A DNA stretch of 64,000 nucleotides from Pandoraea capi (GTDB taxonomy: Bacteria > Pseudomonadota > Gammaproteobacteria > Burkholderiales > Burkholderiaceae). The notes under the pieces were generated by a model. The model saw nothing but the letters and a program-made list of their open reading frames with translations. It was not told where the DNA came from and made no database searches. Both the position numbers and the translations under genes were made by a program. This document shows positions 3,505 to 42,652 of the stretch, piece after piece. The first letter of the stretch is position 1, and the number at the start of each line of letters is the position of its first letter. The DNA is taken from contig NZ_CABPRV010000001.1 in the NCBI RefSeq assembly GCF_902459735.1, forward strand, positions 62,001-126,000, written 5' to 3'.

Positions 3505-4560
3505 CTAAACCGCCTCGGCCGGCCCGAGCTTGTCGTACCCCTTGATCCGGTAGACGACGAACGACAGCAGCCACGACAGGATGAACACGCCGATGATGGC
3601 GAAGCCGAGGTTGTTGAAGTTCTCGTTCAGCTCGGCAATGACATCCCAGAACCCACCCGTCAGTTCGTACTTGTTCTGGAACATGCCGAGCGTTTCGATC
3701 CCGCCGATGAGCACGGCGACGAGCACCGACACGAGCGTGATCGTCAGGTTGTAATACAGCTTGCGAATCGGACGAACGAAGGCCCACTCGTAGGCGCCGA
3801 GCATCAGAATGCCGTCCGTCGTGTCGACGAGCGTCATACCGGCGGCAAACAGCGCCGGGAACACCAGCACCGTGCCCAGCGACACGCCATGCGCCGCCTG
3901 ACTGGCCGACAGCGCCAGCAGACTCACTTCGGTGGCCGTATCGAACCCGAGGCCGAACAGGAACCCCAGCGGCAGCATCCACGCCGGATGCGACACGAGC
4001 CGGAACATCGGACGGAACAGGCGCGCCACGAAGCCACGATTGTTCAGCAGGATATCGAGATCGTCGTTGTCGTAGGGCAGACCGCGACGCACCTTGTCGA
4101 ACGCACGCCACACCCCTCGCAGTATGAAGATATTCATCGCAGCGATCAGGAACAGGAACGTTGCCGAGATACTGGTGGAAATGATGCCGCCGACACCCCG
4201 CCATTCCTCGACACGGTTTTGCAGCGCCACCGCTGCAAGCGCCACGCCGGCCGCCACGATCAGCACCACGGCTGAGTGCCCGAGCGCGAAGAAGAAGCCG
4301 ACCGAGACGGGGCGCTGCCCGTCCTGCATCAGCTTGCGCGTGACGTTGTCGATGGCGGCGATGTGATCGGCATCCACCGCATGACGCAGGCCGAAGCCCC
4401 ACGCCAGCACGCCGGTACTCAGCAGCAGCGGGTCGCCACGGAACGCGACGAACGCCCAGACCCACGCGCCGATATTGAACGCCGCGAGCAAGGCATACAT
4501 GCCGCCGACGCGAGTGCGCAAGCGTCCCGCCGGCGGCAAGGAGGTAAGAGACATGGACAT
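3505..4560 (-). CDS. NiCoT-family nickel/cobalt transporter
   Basis: A 351-residue polytopic membrane protein with about eight hydrophobic segments. The family signature RHAVDADHIAAIDN, the metal-binding HA-x-DADH loop of HoxN/NixA/NhlF permeases, is intact. FALGHSAVV, GLGFDTATE and MTLVDTTDGILM are further conserved blocks. It imports Co2+ or Ni2+ across the inner membrane; its place as last gene of the cobW-cobN-chl operon, 45 bp after the VWA frame, points to cobalt for CobN. A second ATG at 4554 is equally possible. It converges on cobJ with an 82-bp gap holding a short GGCGGCTA-type tandem repeat. Confidence 0.93.
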   Translation of the reverse strand: MSMSLTSLPPAGRLRTRVGGMYALLAAFNIGAWVWAFVAFRGDPLLLSTGVLAWGFGLRHAVDADHIAAIDNVTRKLMQDGQRPVSVGFFFALGHSAVVLIVAAGVALAAVALQNRVEEWRGVGGIISTSISATFLFLIAAMNIFILRGVWRAFDKVRRGLPYDNDDLDILLNNRGFVARLFRPMFRLVSHPAWMLPLGFLFGLGFDTATEVSLLALSASQAAHGVSLGTVLVFPALFAAGMTLVDTTDGILMLGAYEWAFVRPIRKLYYNLTITLVSVLVAVLIGGIETLGMFQNKYELTGGFWDVIAELNENFNNLGFAIIGVFILSWLLSFVVYRIKGYDKLGPAEAV

Positions 4561-4605: not shown

Positions 4606-5319
4606 TTAAACACGCGGTGCAATCTCATCCAGACGAACGCATTCGGCCGCCCACGCGCGAGCGAGACGTTCGCAACCACCCAGCGCGATATGTGCCACAT
4701 GTCCGATACGCGCCTGCTCGCAATCGACCACGACAACGCGGTCGACGCCCGGGGGCTTCGACGGCATGTCGCGGGTGCGTCCGTCCGTCAGCAGCCACAA
4801 CACCCGCAACTGCGATGCCTGTGCGCCTTTGGCGCGTTTTGCCCGCGCGAGCAGTCGTGCCGCGGCGGCGACACCGGCCGACAGCGGCGTACCGCCCCCA
4901 CCGCCGATCGGCTCGATCCAGCGCTCGTTCCACCATCGCGGCACGGCGGGACCGAACAGCACCTCGGCGCGATCGCCGCCGAAGCGAATCAGCGCGACTT
5001 CGGATCGCGCCCGCGCCAGGCGGTCGAAGCTATCGAGCAACCAGCCTTTCGCCTGCGCGAGACTGCCGAGCATCGATGCGGAAGCGTCGAGCACGAAGCA
5101 GTGCAATTCGCCGCCGGGGGTTTCGTCCCCCGCGTAACGCAGATGCGTTCTGTCCAGCGGCTGCGGGCCTTTGCGCAATAGCGTCGCGCTCCAGACGATG
5201 CGTCGTCCCGGCACGAACGTCTCGCTGCGAGGTTTCGCGCGTCTTGCCTGCCCTGCACCGTGTAACCACCGGGAACCGCCGGACGAGCCGACGGCGGCGC
5301 GCTCCCGATGGTTCAGCGT
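4606..5319 (-). CDS. chlD: VWA (C-terminal) half of ChlD-like cobaltochelatase subunit, -1 frame
   Basis: About 237 residues in the -1 frame relative to the AAA+ gene upstream. It is a von Willebrand A domain with a full MIDAS: DASASM (DxSxS), the later Thr in GGGGTPLSAG, and LLTDGRTRD. The frame is open back to 5391 but that codon is TTG without a Shine-Dalgarno; the first ATG (5073) falls inside the MIDAS, so independent initiation looks unlikely. A -1 slip at the A-run 5325-5319 joins it to the AAA+ domain, giving a 600-residue ChlD/BchD-like medium subunit (fused MIDAS near residues 441-445, 507 and 542). A basic, low-complexity linker precedes the VWA fold. Confidence 0.8.
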   Translation of the reverse strand, partial: TLNHRERAAVGSSGGSRWLHGAGQARRAKPRSETFVPGRRIVWSATLLRKGPQPLDRTHLRYAGDETPGGELHCFVLDASASMLGSLAQAKGWLLDSFDRLARARSEVALIRFGGDRAEVLFGPAVPRWWNERWIEPIGGGGGTPLSAGVAAAARLLARAKRAKGAQASQLRVLWLLTDGRTRDMPSKPPGVDRVVVVDCEQARIGHVAHIALGGCERLARAWAAECVRLDEIAPRV

Positions 5320-6407
5320 TTTTTTGACGACAGCGGGACCACGCCCTTCACGCGAGTCGTTCCGATTGGCTCGGGTGGTAGATAGCCCCAATCGGGCGCA
5401 GCGTCGCCGGTTCCACTGCTCTGCGGCGCGTCCCCTGCGTCAGCCCCACGGGCCTCTTGTGCGGTGCCGCCGGCGTCCTGATACGGACGGCCGGACGACG
5501 TGCCTTGCACAGGTGCGTGACGACGATGCCCCAGCACCGACTCCGCCACGCGCTCGACATGCGCGCGTGTGGCCGCCGGCGAACCTTCCAGCGCAGCCAG
5601 TGCCCGTGCGGCGCGCAGCATGATGAGGTCGGCGCGCATGCCGTCGACCTGCGCTTCGATACATCGGGCGCTCACGGCATCGTGCGCGTCGTCGTCGATG
5701 CCGACATCGGCCAGCGCCGCGCGCGCGTCGAGAATGCGCTGACGAAGCTCGGCCTGCGCCGGTGCGTGTCGCTCGTGAAACGCCGCCGGATCGAGATCGA
5801 ACGCCAGCCGCGTCTTCACGATTTGCTGACGCACCTGCGGATCGAAACAGTTCTCCAGCACGACCGTCAGGCCGAAGCGGTCCAGCAGTTGGGGCCGCAG
5901 CTCGCCCTCCTCCGGATTCATCGTACCGACGAGCATGAAGCGCGCTGCGTGCCGGTGCGATACCCCGTCGCGCTCCACGACGTTGATGCCGCTCGCGGCA
6001 ACGTCCAGCACCACGTCGACGAGCGCATCGGCCAGCAGGTTCACTTCGTCGACATACAACACGCCCTGATGCGCGCGCGCCAGCAGGCCCGGCGAGAACT
6101 TCACGCCGCCGCCGCGCAGCGCTTCGTCGATATCCAGCGCACCGATCAGGCGCTCCTCGGTCGCGCCCAGCGGCAGCGTCACGAAAGGACAGTCGGGCAG
6201 CAGATCGGCCAGCGAGCGGGCCGCCGTCGATTTCGCGGTGCCGCGCGGGCCGGTGATCAGCACGCCGCCAATCGACGGATCGACGGCGATCAGCAACAAG
6301 GCGTCGCGCAGCGGCACCTGACCGACGAGCGCAGTCAGGGGAAATGAAGGAAAAGGCGGCGGCATTGGCGACGTCTCAGACGCGCTCGGTTCGTTGGGCG
6401 ATGTCAC
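5313..6407 (-). CDS. chlI: ChlI/BchI-like AAA+ ATPase, small subunit and N-terminal part of ChlD
   Basis: A 364-residue Mg-chelatase-type AAA+ protein. Walker A GPRGTAKST is at residues 53-61, Walker B GVLYVDE near 115-121, sensor-1/arginine-finger region GTMNPEEGELRPQLLDRFG follows, and a helical lid then a Gly/Pro-rich linker ends at TGA 5315-5313, two codons after the run AAAAAAA. It should power cobalt insertion by CobN. I chose GTG 6407 because it overlaps the cobN stop as GTGA and has GGAG about seven bases upstream; ATG 6365 would remove 14 residues. Dedicated CobS/CobT genes are not seen here, so this gene probably supplies both small and medium subunits. Confidence 0.88.
   Translation of the reverse strand: MTSPNEPSASETSPMPPPFPSFPLTALVGQVPLRDALLLIAVDPSIGGVLITGPRGTAKSTAARSLADLLPDCPFVTLPLGATEERLIGALDIDEALRGGGVKFSPGLLARAHQGVLYVDEVNLLADALVDVVLDVAASGINVVERDGVSHRHAARFMLVGTMNPEEGELRPQLLDRFGLTVVLENCFDPQVRQQIVKTRLAFDLDPAAFHERHAPAQAELRQRILDARAALADVGIDDDAHDAVSARCIEAQVDGMRADLIMLRAARALAALEGSPAATRAHVERVAESVLGHRRHAPVQGTSSGRPYQDAGGTAQEARGADAGDAPQSSGTGDAAPDWGYLPPEPIGTTRVKGVVPLSSKKR
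5319..5325 (-). other. Candidate programmed -1 ribosomal frameshift site (A AAA AAA)
   Basis: On the minus strand the codons TCA AAA AAA CGC TGA end the AAA+ frame. The heptamer A-AAA-AAA allows both tRNA-Lys to slip back one base and read ACG CTG AAC into the VWA frame. A GC-rich hairpin (six-pair stem CCGCCG/CGGCGG, 5297-5276, ten-base loop) follows after 21 bases. An AAGGG Shine-Dalgarno-like element (5348-5344) lies 18 bases upstream. Both are further from the slippery run than in the textbook dnaX signal. Slippage-based chlI/chlD production has been reported for other chlD genes of cobalamin producers. Confidence 0.75.
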
Positions 6408-9400
6408 GACACGCTCCGTTCGATTTCCTGGCCGACGGCCAGGAGATGATTTTCGATTTGCTCGCGGTAGGCGCCGGGCGATTGCCACAGGCCCCGGCCG
6501 ATGGCTTCGAGCAGACGCTCGCACACGCCGCGCAGTGCCTGCGGGTTGTGGCGCTGCATGAACTCGCGCGTGTGCGCATCGTTCAGGCAGGCGTCGGTCA
6601 CGAGTCCGTATTGATGGTCCGACACCACGCGCGCCGTGGCGTCGTAACCGAACAGGTAATCGACCGTTGCGGCAATCTCCGCCGCGCCCTTGTAACCGTG
6701 ACGCTTCACCCCGTCGAGCCATTTCGGATTGACGACACGCGCACGGATCACGCGGGCGATCTCTTCGGTCAGCGGGCGCACGCGCGGCGCATCCGGGCGG
6801 CTGTGGTCGGCGTGGTACACCTCGGGCTGCTGCCCCGAGAAGTGGCGCACGGCCGCCGTCATGCCGCCCTGAAACTGGTAGTAATCGTTCGAGTCGAGCA
6901 CGTCGTGCTCGCGATTGTCCTGATTCTGCAAAACGACGTCGATGCTCGCCAGACGCGTCGCAAACACGCCATGTGCCTGCTCTCCGGCACTCGCCTGCGC
7001 ATACGCATAGCCGCCGGACTCACGATAGGCTTGCGCGAGATCTTCGTCCGTCTGCCACAGGCCGTTGTCGATCATCTCCTGCAAGCCCGCGCCGTAAGTG
7101 CCGGGGCGCGAACTGAAGACGCGCCAGCCCGCACGCTTGCGTGCCTCGTCGGCGTCGAGTCCGCGCGCCATCCAGGCGTCGCGCTCGCGCAGCACACGCG
7201 CGCGGATCGGGTTGATGTCCTCCGGCTCGTCGAGCGCCGCCACGGCCTGCACGGCAGCGTCGAACAGGTGCATGACATTCGGGAAGGCGTCGCGGAAGAA
7301 GCCGGACACCCGCAGCGTGACGTCGATGCGCGGACGCTCCATGCCGCCCGGCGGCAGAATTTCGAAGTCCGTCACCCGGTGACTGCCGGCAGCCCACTTC
7401 GGACGCACGCCCAGCAACGCGAATGCCTGCGCGATATCGTCGCCGCCGGTGCGCATCGTGGCCGTGCCCCACACCGACAGGCCGATAGCACGCGGGTAAT
7501 CGCCGTGATCCTGCAAATGACGCTCGATCAACTGGCGCGCCGATTTCACGCCGAGCGCCCATGCCGTCTGCGTGGGAATCGCGCGCGTGTCGACGGAGTA
7601 GAAGTTGCGCCCCGTGGGCAGCACGTCCGGGCGTCCGCGCGAGGGCGCGCCGCTCGGTCCCGGCGGCACGAAGCGCCCTTCGAGACCGCGCCGAAGATGC
7701 CTTAGCTCCTCGCTGCCGCAGGCATCGAGCGACGGCAGCACTTCGTCCCGCGCTCGCGCCAGCACTTCGCGCGTCGCGCTCAGATGCAGTGTCTTGCCTT
7801 CGAGCGACGCGGCAGGCGCTGCATCCTGACCGGTCAACGTCTCCAGCAAGTTCGTCGCCAGCAACTCCAACCGCTCTCGCGTATCGCCCTGATGACGCCA
7901 CGGTGCATCGCTCACCTGTGCGAGCAACGCCGGACGCGGTCCGTCCCACGGCGCCGACCATTCGGCCTTGAGCGGATCGAACCGGTCGTCGATCTGCAAG
8001 TCTTTCGCCAGCGCATCGATGAGGCTGGCGTCGCGGCCCTGCCCGCCACGCACGGGGAAACGCATCAGCGCGAGCAACGTATCGCGACGTTCGCGCCCCG
8101 TCGGCGAGCGACCGAAGATGTGCAGACCGTCGCGAATCTGCGTCTCCTTCAGCTCGCACAGCCAGGTGTCCACGCGGGTAAGCAGTTCGTCTTCCGCGTC
8201 CGTATCGTTCGGGGCGTCGAGGCTCAGTTCCTCGTGCAGCCGATGACGAACGATGGTCTCGAGGATCGTGCTGCGCAGTAGTCTGGCGCGGCGCGCATCG
8301 ACCATCAGCGCTTCGTAATACTCGTCGACCTGACGCTCCAGATCCTGAAGCGGGCCATACGACTCCGCGCGCGTGAGCGGCGGCATCAGATGATCGATGA
8401 TCACGGCCTGCGCGCGACGCTTCGCCTGACTGCCCTCGCCCGGATCGTTCACGATGAACGGGTAGAGATGGGGCAGCGGGCCGAGCGTCAGATCCGGCCA
8501 GCAACTGTCGGACGGCGCCACGCTCTTGCCGGGCAGCCATTCGAGACTGCCGTGTTTGCCCACGTGCACGACGGCATCGACCTCGACCGTATGGCGCAGC
8601 CAGAAGTAAAACGCGAGATAGGCGTGCGGCGGGACGAGTTCGGCGTCGTGATAGCTGGCGTAATCGCCGTCGATGCGAGAGCGCGACGGCTGGATGCCCA
8701 CGAACACATTGCCGCATCGCCAGCCGGCGATCATGAAGCGTCCCTGCCGGACGGTAGGGTCCTGATCTGCCGGCCCCCAGCGTTCGTTCAGCGCGTCGCG
8801 CACGTCTGCCGGTAACTGCGCGAACGCCGCGAGATAGTCGTCGAGCGCGTAGCTCTGAAAGGCCGGGCGCAACGCACGCGTCTCGGGATCGTTCGTCACG
8901 CCGCGCGTCAGTCGCGCCATCAGCGCCTCGCCGTCGTCGGGCAGTTCATCGACGCGGTAGCCTTCGTCGCGCAGCAAGGTCAGTATCTCGACGACCGACG
9001 CCGGGGTATCGAGTCCGACACCATTGCCGATGCGTCCCTCGCTCGCCGGGTAGTTCGCCAGCACCAGCGCAAGACGCTTTTGCGCGTTGGGCTTCGTGCG
9101 CAGCAGGCACCAGCGGCGACTGAGTTCGGCCACGAACGCGACGCGTTCCTTGTCAGGCTGGTAGCGCACGACATCGACTTCAGTGCGCGGGCAGCGATAG
9201 TCGAGGCCCTTGAAGCTGATCGCCCGCGTGATGATGCGGCCGTCGACTTCCGGCAGCGCGACGTGCATTGCGATATCGCGGGAGTTGAGGCCCTGATTGT
9301 CCTTGACCCAATCGTCGCGATTACCGCCGCTGAGAATCACCTGCAACACCGGCGCGTCGCTGCCGAAGACCTGCGACTGGCGCGGATCTTCCGGCGTCGA

Positions 9401-10228
9401 GGTGGAGAAGGCCGTGGTGTTGAGGACCAGCGAGACGTCGTAGGTGTCGCAGAGTTGCTGCACTACGTCGCGGCTGAGGGCGTCCTTGAGCGACGTAATC
9501 GCGATCGGCAGCGGATTCAGACCGCGCGCGCTCAGTGCATCGATCAGGGCGTCGAACACGCCGGTATTCGCCGCCTGCAAGTGCGCGCGGTAGAACAGGA
9601 TGGCGACGACGGGCGCCCCGGCATGCCAGCAGGCCTGCCAGTCGTCCATCGTGGCGACTCGGGTCGGCGATCGCGGATTCGGGTGGTACAGCGTGGCATT
9701 GGGCACCGCGACCGGCAGCGGCGGTTCGTCGCCCCAGCCGAGCGCGTGCCACGCGATGGCACGCAGAAACGCCTCGGCGTTGACCGGTCCGCCCTGACGC
9801 AGGTAGCGCCACAGGCGCGTACAGAACTCGGGGCTTGCCGTGCTCAGCGCCGTCAGGTTCGGGTCTTCCTGCAAGTCGCCGGAGAACATCACCAGCATCT
9901 GAGCGCGACGCTGCGCCAGTTCGACGATCCGCTCGATGCCATACGGCCAGTAAGCTTCGCCCCCCAGATGGTCGACCACCACGACGCGCGCATGCTGCAA
10001 GACATCGTCGACATAGAAGTCGACCGACGCCGGTTGCCGCAGATACGTGACGTTGGCAAGCCGCAGGCTCGGGAAATCGTCGCCGAGCCGCTCGACCACG
10101 CTCGCGAGCAACGACAGCGTGGTGTCGGCCGAGCTGAGCACCACGATGTCGGCGGGTTGTTGATCGATGCGGATCACGCCGGCGGCGTCATCGACAAAGC
10201 CGCCGGGGACTGTCCGTAACAGATGCAT
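6404..10228 (-). CDS. cobN: CobN, cobaltochelatase large subunit
   Basis: A 1274-residue protein, the normal CobN length. CobN binds hydrogenobyrinate a,c-diamide and, with an ATPase small subunit and a VWA medium subunit, inserts Co2+ in the aerobic pathway. Conserved CobN/BchH blocks are visible, including VHVGKHGSLEWLPGKSVA (His-rich substrate segment), PHLYPFIVNDPGEGSQAKRR and the C-terminal RNPKWLDGVKRHGYKGAAE-like segment. It begins 18 bp after cobW and its TGA overlaps the GTG of the AAA+ gene, so all three are probably co-translated under the riboswitch upstream of cobW. Confidence 0.96.
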   Translation of the reverse strand: MHLLRTVPGGFVDDAAGVIRIDQQPADIVVLSSADTTLSLLASVVERLGDDFPSLRLANVTYLRQPASVDFYVDDVLQHARVVVVDHLGGEAYWPYGIERIVELAQRRAQMLVMFSGDLQEDPNLTALSTASPEFCTRLWRYLRQGGPVNAEAFLRAIAWHALGWGDEPPLPVAVPNATLYHPNPRSPTRVATMDDWQACWHAGAPVVAILFYRAHLQAANTGVFDALIDALSARGLNPLPIAITSLKDALSRDVVQQLCDTYDVSLVLNTTAFSTSTPEDPRQSQVFGSDAPVLQVILSGGNRDDWVKDNQGLNSRDIAMHVALPEVDGRIITRAISFKGLDYRCPRTEVDVVRYQPDKERVAFVAELSRRWCLLRTKPNAQKRLALVLANYPASEGRIGNGVGLDTPASVVEILTLLRDEGYRVDELPDDGEALMARLTRGVTNDPETRALRPAFQSYALDDYLAAFAQLPADVRDALNERWGPADQDPTVRQGRFMIAGWRCGNVFVGIQPSRSRIDGDYASYHDAELVPPHAYLAFYFWLRHTVEVDAVVHVGKHGSLEWLPGKSVAPSDSCWPDLTLGPLPHLYPFIVNDPGEGSQAKRRAQAVIIDHLMPPLTRAESYGPLQDLERQVDEYYEALMVDARRARLLRSTILETIVRHRLHEELSLDAPNDTDAEDELLTRVDTWLCELKETQIRDGLHIFGRSPTGRERRDTLLALMRFPVRGGQGRDASLIDALAKDLQIDDRFDPLKAEWSAPWDGPRPALLAQVSDAPWRHQGDTRERLELLATNLLETLTGQDAAPAASLEGKTLHLSATREVLARARDEVLPSLDACGSEELRHLRRGLEGRFVPPGPSGAPSRGRPDVLPTGRNFYSVDTRAIPTQTAWALGVKSARQLIERHLQDHGDYPRAIGLSVWGTATMRTGGDDIAQAFALLGVRPKWAAGSHRVTDFEILPPGGMERPRIDVTLRVSGFFRDAFPNVMHLFDAAVQAVAALDEPEDINPIRARVLRERDAWMARGLDADEARKRAGWRVFSSRPGTYGAGLQEMIDNGLWQTDEDLAQAYRESGGYAYAQASAGEQAHGVFATRLASIDVVLQNQDNREHDVLDSNDYYQFQGGMTAAVRHFSGQQPEVYHADHSRPDAPRVRPLTEEIARVIRARVVNPKWLDGVKRHGYKGAAEIAATVDYLFGYDATARVVSDHQYGLVTDACLNDAHTREFMQRHNPQALRGVCERLLEAIGRGLWQSPGAYREQIENHLLAVGQEIERSVS

Positions 10229-10246: not shown

Positions 10247-11353
10247 TCAGGCCGCCGCGGTAGACGTGGCCGACGTGGCGCTCACGCCCAGTGCCGCGTC
10301 GAATTCGCGCTGGAGCGCTTCGGCGTCAAGGTCTTCGCCAATCAGCACGAAGCGGCTGCCGCGTGCTTCGCCATCGCGCCAGTGACGGTCGAAATAGCTG
10401 TCGAAACGCTTGCCGACGCCCTGAATCACGAGACGCATCGGTGCGCCCGGCAACGCCGCGAACCCCTTGGCGCGGTAGATCGTGTGGTTCTGCACCAACT
10501 GGCTCAACGCGGCGATGACCGAGTCGCGCGACGCCGGTGCCGTGAGCGATGCCGACACCATGACCGAATCGAACTCGTCGTGATGGTGGTCCGCATCGTC
10601 CGCCGAACCATGATGGTCGTGACGCTGATCGATGGTTTCCTCGGAGGCCGAGTTCAGACCGAGCAGCACGCTCAGATCGAGGTTGCCGTTGCTCGCCGGC
10701 ACGATCTTCACGTGCGCAGGCAGCTCTTCGCGAATCAGGGCCGACACGCTGACTTGCGCCGCGTCGTCGAGCAGATCGGTCTTGTTGAGAATGACCAGAT
10801 CCGCCGCGCTCAACTGGTCTTCGAACAGTTCGTGTAGCGGCGATTCGTGGTCGAGATTCGGATCGGCCTTGCGCTGTTCGTCGACCGCCACCGGGTTTTC
10901 GGCGAACTGGCCGCTGGCGGCGGCAGGACCGTCGACCACGGTAATCACGGCGTCGACGGTGAAGCTGTTGCGGATCGACGGCCAGTTGAACGCCTGCACC
11001 AGCGGCTTGGGCAGCGCGAGGCCGGACGTCTCGATAAGCACATGGTCGATCTGGTCGCGACGCTCCACCAGCGCTTCCATCACAGGGAAGAACTCCTCCT
11101 GGACGGTGCAGCACAGGCAGCCGTTGGCCAGCTCGTACAGTTGGCCCTCGGTCTCCTGACCGTTGTCGTCGCAGCCGATGCCGCAACCCTTGAGGATTTC
11201 GCCGTCGATGCCCAGTTCGCCGAATTCGTTGACGATGACCGCGACGCGCAGGCCGTTGTTGTTGGACAGGATGTGACGCAGCAGCGTGGTTTTACCGCTG
11301 CCGAGAAAGCCCGTGATCACGGTCACGGGGATCTTGCGCATGGAAGTCGACAT
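10247..11353 (-). CDS. cobW: CobW, cobalt-chaperone-type GTPase
   Basis: A 368-residue G3E-family metallochaperone GTPase. Walker A GFLGSGKTTLL lies near the N-terminus, CLCCTV is the metal-binding CxCC motif, NKTDLL is the guanine-recognition motif, and a His-rich stretch (RHDHHGSADDADHHH) separates it from the CobW C-terminal domain. It is thought to deliver cobalt to CobN. ATG 11353 (MSTSMRK) gives the usual start; ATG 11341 is possible and the frame stays open to 11521. No strong Shine-Dalgarno lies directly before 11353. First gene of the cobW-cobN-chl-nicoT operon, about 195 bases downstream of the riboswitch. Confidence 0.94.
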   Translation of the reverse strand: MSTSMRKIPVTVITGFLGSGKTTLLRHILSNNNGLRVAVIVNEFGELGIDGEILKGCGIGCDDNGQETEGQLYELANGCLCCTVQEEFFPVMEALVERRDQIDHVLIETSGLALPKPLVQAFNWPSIRNSFTVDAVITVVDGPAAASGQFAENPVAVDEQRKADPNLDHESPLHELFEDQLSAADLVILNKTDLLDDAAQVSVSALIREELPAHVKIVPASNGNLDLSVLLGLNSASEETIDQRHDHHGSADDADHHHDEFDSVMVSASLTAPASRDSVIAALSQLVQNHTIYRAKGFAALPGAPMRLVIQGVGKRFDSYFDRHWRDGEARGSRFVLIGEDLDAEALQREFDAALGVSATSATSTAAA

Positions 11354-11547
11354 GGAATAAGGCAAAGCGTGGTGACACGCCTCTTCCGGCCCGGTCGTCG
11401 GTGCTGCCGGTATTGCCGGCATGGCATTCGACCTGTCCGGCAGGACACGGCCGCGCCGCCGGTGACGGCTGCATCGGGAAAGCGGAGGAAACGTGGCGAA
11501 ACTGAAGGTTTGACTGCACACCGCCTACCCGCAGTGCCAATCGTCTT

Positions 11548-11802
11548 CTCCGGCCGGTATCCGGGCTGACGAAATGGCCGCTTCACCTTCCCACGCCGCC
11601 CGTGAGGGCATTAGCGCAGTGGTCTCGCCCCGCGAAACACGTGCGGGGTTGAAGTCGGCCTGGCGCCGCATGACTGCGGCACCTTCGTTTCACCGTTGCG
11701 GGGGCAGCACAGGCTGGGGCGTCGCGTCGAACCCATGAGGGGGCGCGCCGCCCGTCTGTTTCCCGTTTAACTGCGCACGCCTGAACGTGTGCGCGAGCAC
11801 CA
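11548..11802 (-). promoter_or_regulatory. Cobalamin (B12/AdoCbl) riboswitch
   Basis: Read leftward, the segment shows the ordered conserved blocks of the cobalamin riboswitch: TTAAACGGGAA near 11770, CCCCGCAAC near 11700, a CCACTG near 11619, GGGAAGGTGAAGC near 11590, and CAGCCCGGATACCGGCC (11568-11552), the B12 box region. It lies upstream of cobW and should reduce expression of cobW-cobN-chlI/D-nicoT when adenosylcobalamin is plentiful. The gap to cobW contains a TGTCC/GGACA hairpin that may belong to the expression platform. The exact ends are approximate. Confidence 0.9.
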
Positions 11803-12043
11803 GATTAGCCGCGAGTGTAGGTGCCGGATACCGCTCCGTCAAGGCGAGAGGCCGCCTCCAGTCCTCCCTCAGCCGCCCCGCCGGTGCCCACAATCGGGGC
11901 CCCGGCGGGGCGGACGGACGCGAAGCGAGCCGCGCAAGGCCTGTGGTATCCTCGCCACCAAATTTTCGGTCCCCCTGCTCCCTCGATGAGGGGCATGAAG
12001 GGCGTTACCGCGCATTCGCTTCGCGCACCGTAGCCGACCGCTC
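11803..12043. other. Intergenic region between riboswitch and cobA
   Basis: The stretch separates the leftward riboswitch transcript from the rightward cobA operon and must hold both promoters. I find no second riboswitch: CCCCGCAAC and the B12 box are absent on the + strand. A TATCCT hexamer (TGTGGTATCCT, near 11940) is a possible -10 for cobA but has no convincing -35. Confidence 0.4.
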
Positions 12044-41803: not shown

Positions 41804-41837
41804 CGACACCTGCGCCAGTACGCTGAAAATCGCGGGC

Positions 41838-41866
41838 AAAAAAAAGCGCGGCCGATGAGGCCGCGC
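41838..41866. terminator. Hairpin after the sigma-54 activator gene
   Basis: GCGCGGCC-GATGA-GGCCGCGC (41846-41866) preceded by AAAAAAAA, which gives a U-tract only for leftward transcription. Rightward, the T-content after it is weak. Confidence 0.5.
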
Positions 41867-42652
41867 CAAGGTTTGGAGACTTTTCACTCAACGCAAAAGT
41901 CTACTTCTCGCGGAACGTAGTATAGGTCTGCATCCCGAAATCATTGTCATCATTCGACGCAATGAATTATTCGGTGACTCGCAATAGTCCGTAAAACCCC
42001 ATAAATAAAGCACTTTTCGGCACGCGATGCTTTCGTGCGCTTGCCAACATCTCCGATTTATCCCATTGCGCACGTGCACGCGTCATAGATGACAGCCACA
42101 TGGCAGCCATCCAACATGATGAGAAACGACACGCGCGATCGTCGTGATGAAGTGATGAGGTGAAACATCTCGTCATCGATGCGCGAGACGATGACTGTCA
42201 CAACATGCGATGGTTCGATGCGAGGCGTGCGCAATCATTCATGCGGCATGCTCACACACTCACGGAACCAAATCCGATCATGCGTGTCGCGCGCAAATTC
42301 AATGCTGGCAATGCTTCGCGCGCGCTTTCTTCTGCACATCACACTGTGTCCCAAGCGCAACACACATCGCTTGCACGGCGATTTCTCACCTACGCTTAAT
42401 CAAGCCAATCCCTTGTCAGGCAATGCTTTGGGACGTGTCTCGCAGATTCTTTTCATATCTGAAATAGATTCTTGCGGATTCTGAAATAGGCGGGAGTAGC
42501 GGTGACTCATACACTGCCCCCTGTCAACAGAGCAGTGCCGATAGCTGTTCGGGTCCGCGAGTGACGCATCGTCACCTCGACATGTTCTGTTTCGCCGCGT
42601 TCTGTTTACACGCGAATTCTGCGATTCGTGTCACGTTACTGGAGCTTAAACC
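41867..42652. other. Long AT-richer upstream region of porin
   Basis: No gene seen. GC is clearly lower than in flanking genes. Direct repeats occur: TCTGAAATAG twice (near 42458 and 42480) and GTTCTGTTT twice (near 42585 and 42600), plus CGAAT-TCTGC-GATTCG close to the start. Such a long leader suits a strongly regulated porin, for example an OmpR-type regulator or an antisense small RNA, but I cannot name one. Confidence 0.45.

Follow-up and report, generated by a model that had tools for sequence, protein, structure and literature searches.

The chlD gene behind cobN in Pandoraea capi: a well-supported -1 frameshift gene with a conserved slip site and a covarying hairpin

Organization of the cobN-chlD locus

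The window, that is, the whole stretch of DNA analysed, comprises 64,000 nucleotides of Pandoraea capi (contig NZ_CABPRV010000001.1, positions 62,001 to 126,000). On one strand it contains, in this order, a cobalamin riboswitch, cobW, cobN, chlD and a nickel/cobalt transporter gene. The features are as follows, scores being given with their family thresholds:

11535-11819, minus strand: cobalamin riboswitch heading the operon (RF00174, 46.3 bits, gathering threshold 31.5)
10247-11521, minus strand: cobW (TIGR02475, 488.6 bits, cut-off 332.1)
6404-10228, minus strand: cobN, large cobaltochelatase subunit (TIGR02257, 1591.8 bits, cut-off 822.05)
6414-6417, minus strand: GGAG, which to judge from its sequence probably serves the chlD GTG start as ribosome-binding site
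5313-6407, minus strand: chlD 0-frame, ChlI/CobS-like AAA+ small subunit of 364 aa, with a GTG start and a TGA stop (5313-5315)
5344-5348, minus strand: AAGGG, Shine-Dalgarno-like, 18 bases before the A-run
5319-5325, minus strand: slip heptamer A_AAA_AAA
5313-5318, minus strand: six-base spacer CGC-TGA, which includes the 0-frame stop
5265-5312, minus strand: putative stimulatory hairpin, with an outer helix (about 5312-5303 with 5274-5265) and an inner helix (about 5299-5295 with 5281-5277)
4606-5319, minus strand: -1 frame after the slip, VWA domain with the MIDAS motif DASASM, 237 aa and stop
3505-4560, minus strand: nickel/cobalt transporter of the HoxN/HupN/NixA family, 45 bases downstream of chlD (TIGR00802, 396.5 bits, cut-off 333.05)

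The chlD start (6407) and the cobN stop overlap as GTGA, the last two bases of the GTG belonging also to the stop. Read in phase, the junction is tc-A AAA AAA-CGC TGA, with one sense codon between the run and the TGA. The initial annotation had described an AAA+ frame stopping two codons after A-AAA-AAA and a VWA frame offset from it by -1, and both statements were confirmed in the window sequence, where the TGA is the second codon past the run. The two product lengths it gave were also recovered: 364 residues with normal termination and, computed from the sequence, 363 + 237 = 600 residues after a slip, the VWA part being the C-terminal part of the long product.

The AAA+ frame matched AAA_5, Mg_chelatase and AAA_lid_2 and scored 335.3 bits with TIGR02030, under the cut-off of 466.95; its solved relatives by sequence are ChlI (8osf) and BchI (1g8p). 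The VWA frame matched VWA_2 (E 4.1e-8) and the solved VWA part of BchD (structure 2x31, E 2.2e-10). TIGR02442, a putative cobaltochelatase with AAA+ and VWA in one protein, has a cut-off of 779.45 that was not reached by the frames scored apart (395.7 and 63.1 bits). With an AAA+ frame followed by a VWA frame at -1, an A_AAA_AAR heptamer in phase before the stop and a predicted structure downstream, the gene would, as judged from these elements, be a member of the fs-chlD group. Elsewhere in the window, positions 41837-41921 (minus strand) matched Rfam ncS025 (Burkholderia sRNA 25) with 46.6 bits, the gathering threshold being 46.

Conservation of the slip site

The family survey comprised 299 genomes, searched with the VWA part and with at most eight candidates per genome scored; 154 genomes matched. 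Loci were counted for 149 of these, with G039, G047, G059, G128 and G142 left out as weak matches. The -1 layout with the slip heptamer was identified in 142 of the 149 loci, belonging to nine genera, and these 142 form the fs-chlD set. The other seven are L191, L192 and L195 (frames apart and no run), L193 and L194 (in frame), L196 (no VWA match in the scripted count) and L185. The last one, from genome G265, is the lone fs-chlD-like family locus examined that lacks the heptamer, with a run of six As and, upstream, another change in length; this departure may be either real or an assembly error.

The heptamer is A_AAA_AAA in 138 of the 142 loci and A_AAA_AAG in 4, and in every case the second codon past the run is the 0-frame stop (TGA in 139, TAG in 2 and TAA in 1). 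The codon between the run and the stop is not fixed, being CGC in 84 loci, GCC in 45 and one of eight others in 13. Identity of the VWA part to that of the window falls to 37% among loci keeping the slip site and the stop distance. Outside the slip site, 399 of the 1151 lysine codons of the same 142 genes are AAA, and there are two Lys-Lys pairs, none of them AAA-AAA.

The VWA part was matched in 5 of the 32 genomes of the genus. The values obtained and the printed sequence around the slip site are the same in L007 (Pandoraea anhela) and in L048 (G002, same genus). The named Burkholderiales loci (L007-L026, from Pandoraea, Paraburkholderia, Trinickia and Burkholderia) overlap partly with the 149 family loci and were not added to the counts; they contain the run and the stop in 20/20 and the -1 offset in 19/20, the exception being L025, with the VWA match in frame 0.

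A comparison of the run and its flanks in related genomes had been proposed in the initial annotation, and its outcome, the heptamer and the stop two codons on being kept in 142/149 loci, excludes the homopolymer sequencing error that was considered there. The same comparison contradicts the geometry claimed as particular to this copy, the run, the stop and the stem spacing being those of the family.

The AAGGG was correctly placed 18 bases before the run, and it is present in 5/5 loci of the genus; it is not conserved family-wide, lying at most 30 bases upstream of the run in 32/142 loci (any of seven Shine-Dalgarno-like 5-mers in 37/142). As a conserved upstream stimulator it was rejected on this count, and to judge from the sequences it is probably not a working part of the signal.

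A covarying hairpin downstream of the slip site

The conserved outer helix begins at the base after the stop, at about 5312 and six bases past the run, a classical spacing between run and stem. The 21 bases reported at first fit the inner helix, not the conserved outer one. In this copy pairing is predicted to extend for another three bases and so to involve the stop codon. For the 59 bases that follow the run (5260-5318) the folding energy was -34.1 kcal/mol (z -4.15, reached by 0/200 shuffles); a 45-base piece that ends before the 3' arm is complete gave z -2.01 (reached by 7/200 shuffles), and the 59 bases before the run gave z -0.24.

Covariation was examined in the 142 loci by aligning the -1-frame proteins and putting the codons back, so that pairing did not shape the alignment. 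The 5' arm lies in a Ser-His-Arg just after the run and the 3' arm in a more distant Arg-Trp. Standard pairs make up 95.6% of the cells over nine pairs, falling to 20.7-49.1% when the partner is shifted by 1 to 4 bases. Two pairs present no mismatch: H5.2-W28.1, between position 2 of the His codon and position 1 of the Trp codon (A-U 125, G-C 14, G-U 3), and H5.3-R27.3, between third (silent) positions on both sides (U-A 121, C-G 18, U-G 3); in 1000 shuffles each reached at most 133/142 standard pairs. In 14 loci the Trp codon is replaced by one starting with C (13 Arg and 1 Pro), and all of them have G in the middle of the His codon (Arg). With these loci on a FastTree tree rooted at its midpoint, one parsimony solution has both sides of H5.3-R27.3 changing at once on 6 branches, besides three changes from U-A to U-G and one from U-G to C-G, and both sides of H5.2-W28.1 on 2 branches, besides two changes from A-U to G-U and one from G-U to G-C. 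The covariation of the helix at silent codon positions is unexplained by protein constraint. The outermost pair is standard in 115/142 loci (at most 108 in shuffles) and, on the loop side, where the helix is weaker and less regular, 7.2-26.1 is standard in 88/142 (at most 67) and 7.3-25.3 in 79/142, not above shuffles.

In single-sequence folds of the 72 bases that directly follow the run, the first long-range pair was found at offset 6 in 14/142 loci and at offset 0-3 in 123/142, so that the spacer is often paired in prediction. A global MAFFT alignment of the slip regions followed by RNAalifold yielded no structure, perhaps because loop lengths vary. A triplex has been put forward (PMC5009743); the hairpin arms of this copy, compared by eye, are not divided into purines and pyrimidines.

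Linkage to cobN and other chelatase genes

The end of cobN lies directly upstream of fs-chlD, on the same strand, in 142/142 loci. Of the 32 genomes of the genus, the 5 with cobN are those with the VWA part. A cobN-family match is present in 165 of the 299 family genomes (151 over the cut-off), and these 165, the lists being compared by eye, include every one of the 154 in which the VWA part was matched. Without the weak matches G199, G209 and G253, the 154 become 151, of which 143 contain fs-chlD (including G265) and 8 are others. The cobN expected beside an aerobic cobaltochelatase is hence present and linked, and cobalt insertion itself is predicted.

The only ChlI-type place at E 1e-10 is fs-chlD itself, both in 5/5 genomes of this genus and in 24/24 fs-chlD genomes picked from among eight other genera. 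In the 8 other cobN-bearing family genomes the AAA+ match falls within an open frame of 667-831 aa, and chlD is apparently in frame there (the frames were inspected in G066 and G081). No second ChlI place was found in these eight at 1e-10, and the highest cobS score among them is 125 bits, with no match at all in four; from these genomes, a small subunit produced on its own is perhaps not required in every case. The in-frame ChlD of G066 (749 aa, at 8128-10377 of L197:3843-10377) is next to cobN and has a Cys-containing insert in its AAA+ part, whilst the preceding cobN has a His-rich stretch; no second ChlI place was identified in the G066 genome at 1e-10.

The initial annotation also saw no separate cobS or cobT. 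This holds for the window as far as seen, but the genome has a pair on contig C7, unlinked to cobN, comprising a CobS-like protein of 538.3 bits (TIGR01650 cut-off 558.55) and a CobT-like protein of 313.6 bits (TIGR01651 cut-off 759.05). Lying under both family cut-offs and apart from cobN, the pair is not cobS/cobT proper. Matches of the cobS-like kind were identified in 26/32 genomes of the genus, 4/5 with cobN and 22/27 without it. The argument from cobS/cobT absence was rejected, as the pair is present on C7 and common in the genus with or without cobN. The pair is found beside xsc and pta in the source genome (G000) and in 5/6 further stretches. Since it is spread irrespective of cobN and beside xsc/pta, it is fs-chlD, not the pair, that follows cobN. 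This separates the chlD after cobN from the CobS/CobT-like pair travelling with sulfoacetaldehyde genes, the latter being what annotation may call cobaltochelatase.

On contig C7 the pair is located at L052:5757-12240, and the same layout was identified in L201, L202, L203, L205 and L206. Its neighbour xsc is the sulfoacetaldehyde acetyltransferase gene; two regulators are presumably of the IclR type, and a permease, present except in L201, is one that we take to be of the TauE type (no NCBIfam match). The pair is retained in the cobN-free genomes G009, G027 and G016. L204 (G018 contig C2, about 7366-10092), the remaining one of the six stretches, contains a second CobS-like gene copy, which has a CobT-like neighbour and lacks xsc and pta; its 584.9 bits make it the sole match above the TIGR01650 cut-off in the 32 genomes of the genus, and no cobN match was found in G018. 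In four fs-chlD genomes of other genera, cobS scored 538 bits in G190 (strong), 122 in G045 (weak) and 26 in G175 (marginal), with no match in G077. A literature search joining the names of both enzymes, the cobaltochelatase pair and sulfoacetaldehyde acetyltransferase, found none.

Proposed mechanism and alternative explanations

The best reading of the locus is the one initially proposed, a programmed -1 frameshift by which one gene encodes two subunits, the slip site and the covarying hairpin being found in nine genera. The gene is very probably an fs-chlD of the aerobic B12 pathway, in which the slip yields a small and a medium subunit that join CobN for cobalt insertion. Most ribosomes would end at the TGA and release the 364-aa ChlI/CobS-like AAA+ small subunit. 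The hairpin just after the stop would pause a fraction of them, and these would slip back one base on A_AAA_AAA, with two lysyl-tRNAs re-pairing, and continue into the 600-aa ChlD/CobT-like medium subunit with its VWA domain. Both subunits would then assemble with CobN to insert cobalt. Programmed -1 frameshifting is very well supported in this gene, and we infer it for this organism, together with the slip rate in cells and the formation of the complex; cobalt is the likely metal from the gene context. It seems unlikely that the hairpin is also regulated by a metal, a pathway intermediate or a binding factor setting the small-to-medium ratio; if it were, frameshifting would be a level, below that of the riboswitch, at which cobalt insertion is tuned.

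The same two products would arise if RNA polymerase stuttered on the A-run and gave mixed mRNAs, for which 138/142 loci offer a homopolymer of 7 or 8 As. However, the runs are short, the six As of A_AAA_AAG in 4/142 suit tandem tRNA slippage, and a covarying downstream hairpin would have no evident role in polymerase slippage, all of which makes this explanation very unlikely. The VWA part could instead be translated separately from an internal start, by coupled re-initiation or from an independent site. The MIDAS was located in 142/142 loci, and between the slip and the MIDAS an in-frame ATG, GTG or TTG exists in 138/142 (ATG in 45/142). In the window there is indeed no ATG before DASASM, as first described, but two GTG and two TTG are in frame, and the TTG at 5176-5178 has GGAG ten bases upstream, so that the accompanying claim of no ribosome site was too strong. 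Against separate translation, the sole column ahead of the MIDAS that is start-like in most loci is a GTG that precedes the MIDAS Asp by two codons and already lies inside the domain (111/142, the next column reaching 40/142), and the codon alignment of the 142 loci gave no shared start position outside the VWA domain; the run, the stop position and the hairpin would be left unexplained. An internal start is accordingly highly improbable, and slippage of the ribosome remains the preferred source of the VWA product.

That the break falls at a homopolymer would suit a pseudogene or a sequencing error in a gene truly of one frame, but 142/149 loci, from separate assemblies of nine genera and with a hairpin that covaries, share the break at this run, which leaves this a negligible chance, already refuted at the family level. 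The frameshifting could also be real and the complex handle a different metal, or have a task other than inserting cobalt into a B12 precursor: the cation is left open in the available text of PMC5009743, and fs-chlD is named in genomes without B12 genes in that of PMC9227772. Such a role is quite unlikely given the cobN directly upstream in every one of the 142 loci, the cobalamin riboswitch heading the operon, the cobW and nickel/cobalt transporter genes within it, and the cobN-family match that, lists compared by eye, accompanies each VWA match in the family.

Comparison with known systems

The mechanism is already published, and this gene is a further well-supported example with measured covariation. 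Antonov 2020 is reportedly another paper on fs-chlD. Of the papers available in part, Antonov et al. 2013 described 23 fs-genes with a -1 shift in six genera, including Burkholderia, and three related cassettes with 63, 40 and 10% frameshifting in E. coli reporters, the 10% one being A_AAA_AAA (PMC3711429). In the available text of PMC5009743, A_AAA_AAR is under strong purifying selection and the structure potential is strong, yet the structure-forming sequence is not strongly conserved. According to the part available of Kuznetsov et al. 2022, the two subunits used in aerobic B12 synthesis both come from fs-chlD (PMC9227772); its database comprises more than 1200 genomes, Burkholderia being unnamed in that text. 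The dual product of chlD that the initial annotation attributed to other cobalamin producers was hence on record in 2013 and 2022. A literature search on Pandoraea with chelatase and frameshift found none, and one combining ribosomal frameshifting, magnesium chelatase and Burkholderia retrieved the 2013 paper only.

As far as these texts are available, the present copy shares with published fs-chlD the AAA+ and VWA frames joined by a -1 shift, the A-rich run, the downstream structure and the two subunits from one gene accompanied by aerobic B12 genes. It differs in belonging to Pandoraea, and the covariation measured here was not found set out in the available parts. What is added to a known recoding case is a family-wide set of 142 loci with a fixed slip site and covarying hairpin arms.

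The in-frame ChlD/cobaltochelatase of actinomycetes and some Burkholderiaceae also combines AAA+ and VWA, and is beside cobN in G066, but has both domains in one frame (21/21 actinomycete loci and the G066 ORF), in contrast with the two frames of fs-chlD. The CobS/CobT of the Pseudomonas denitrificans type (TIGR01650/TIGR01651) are likewise a small AAA+ and a medium VWA subunit of cobaltochelatase; they are encoded by two separate genes, and the CobS/CobT-like pair of this genome is another locus.

The dnaX gene of E. coli presents the same elements as fs-chlD: an A-rich tandem-Lys heptamer, an early stop, a downstream hairpin and two products in one complex. The differences are that dnaX has a working upstream Shine-Dalgarno-like stimulator, whereas the AAGGG of fs-chlD is not conserved, and that frameshifting gives the shorter product in dnaX and the longer one in fs-chlD.
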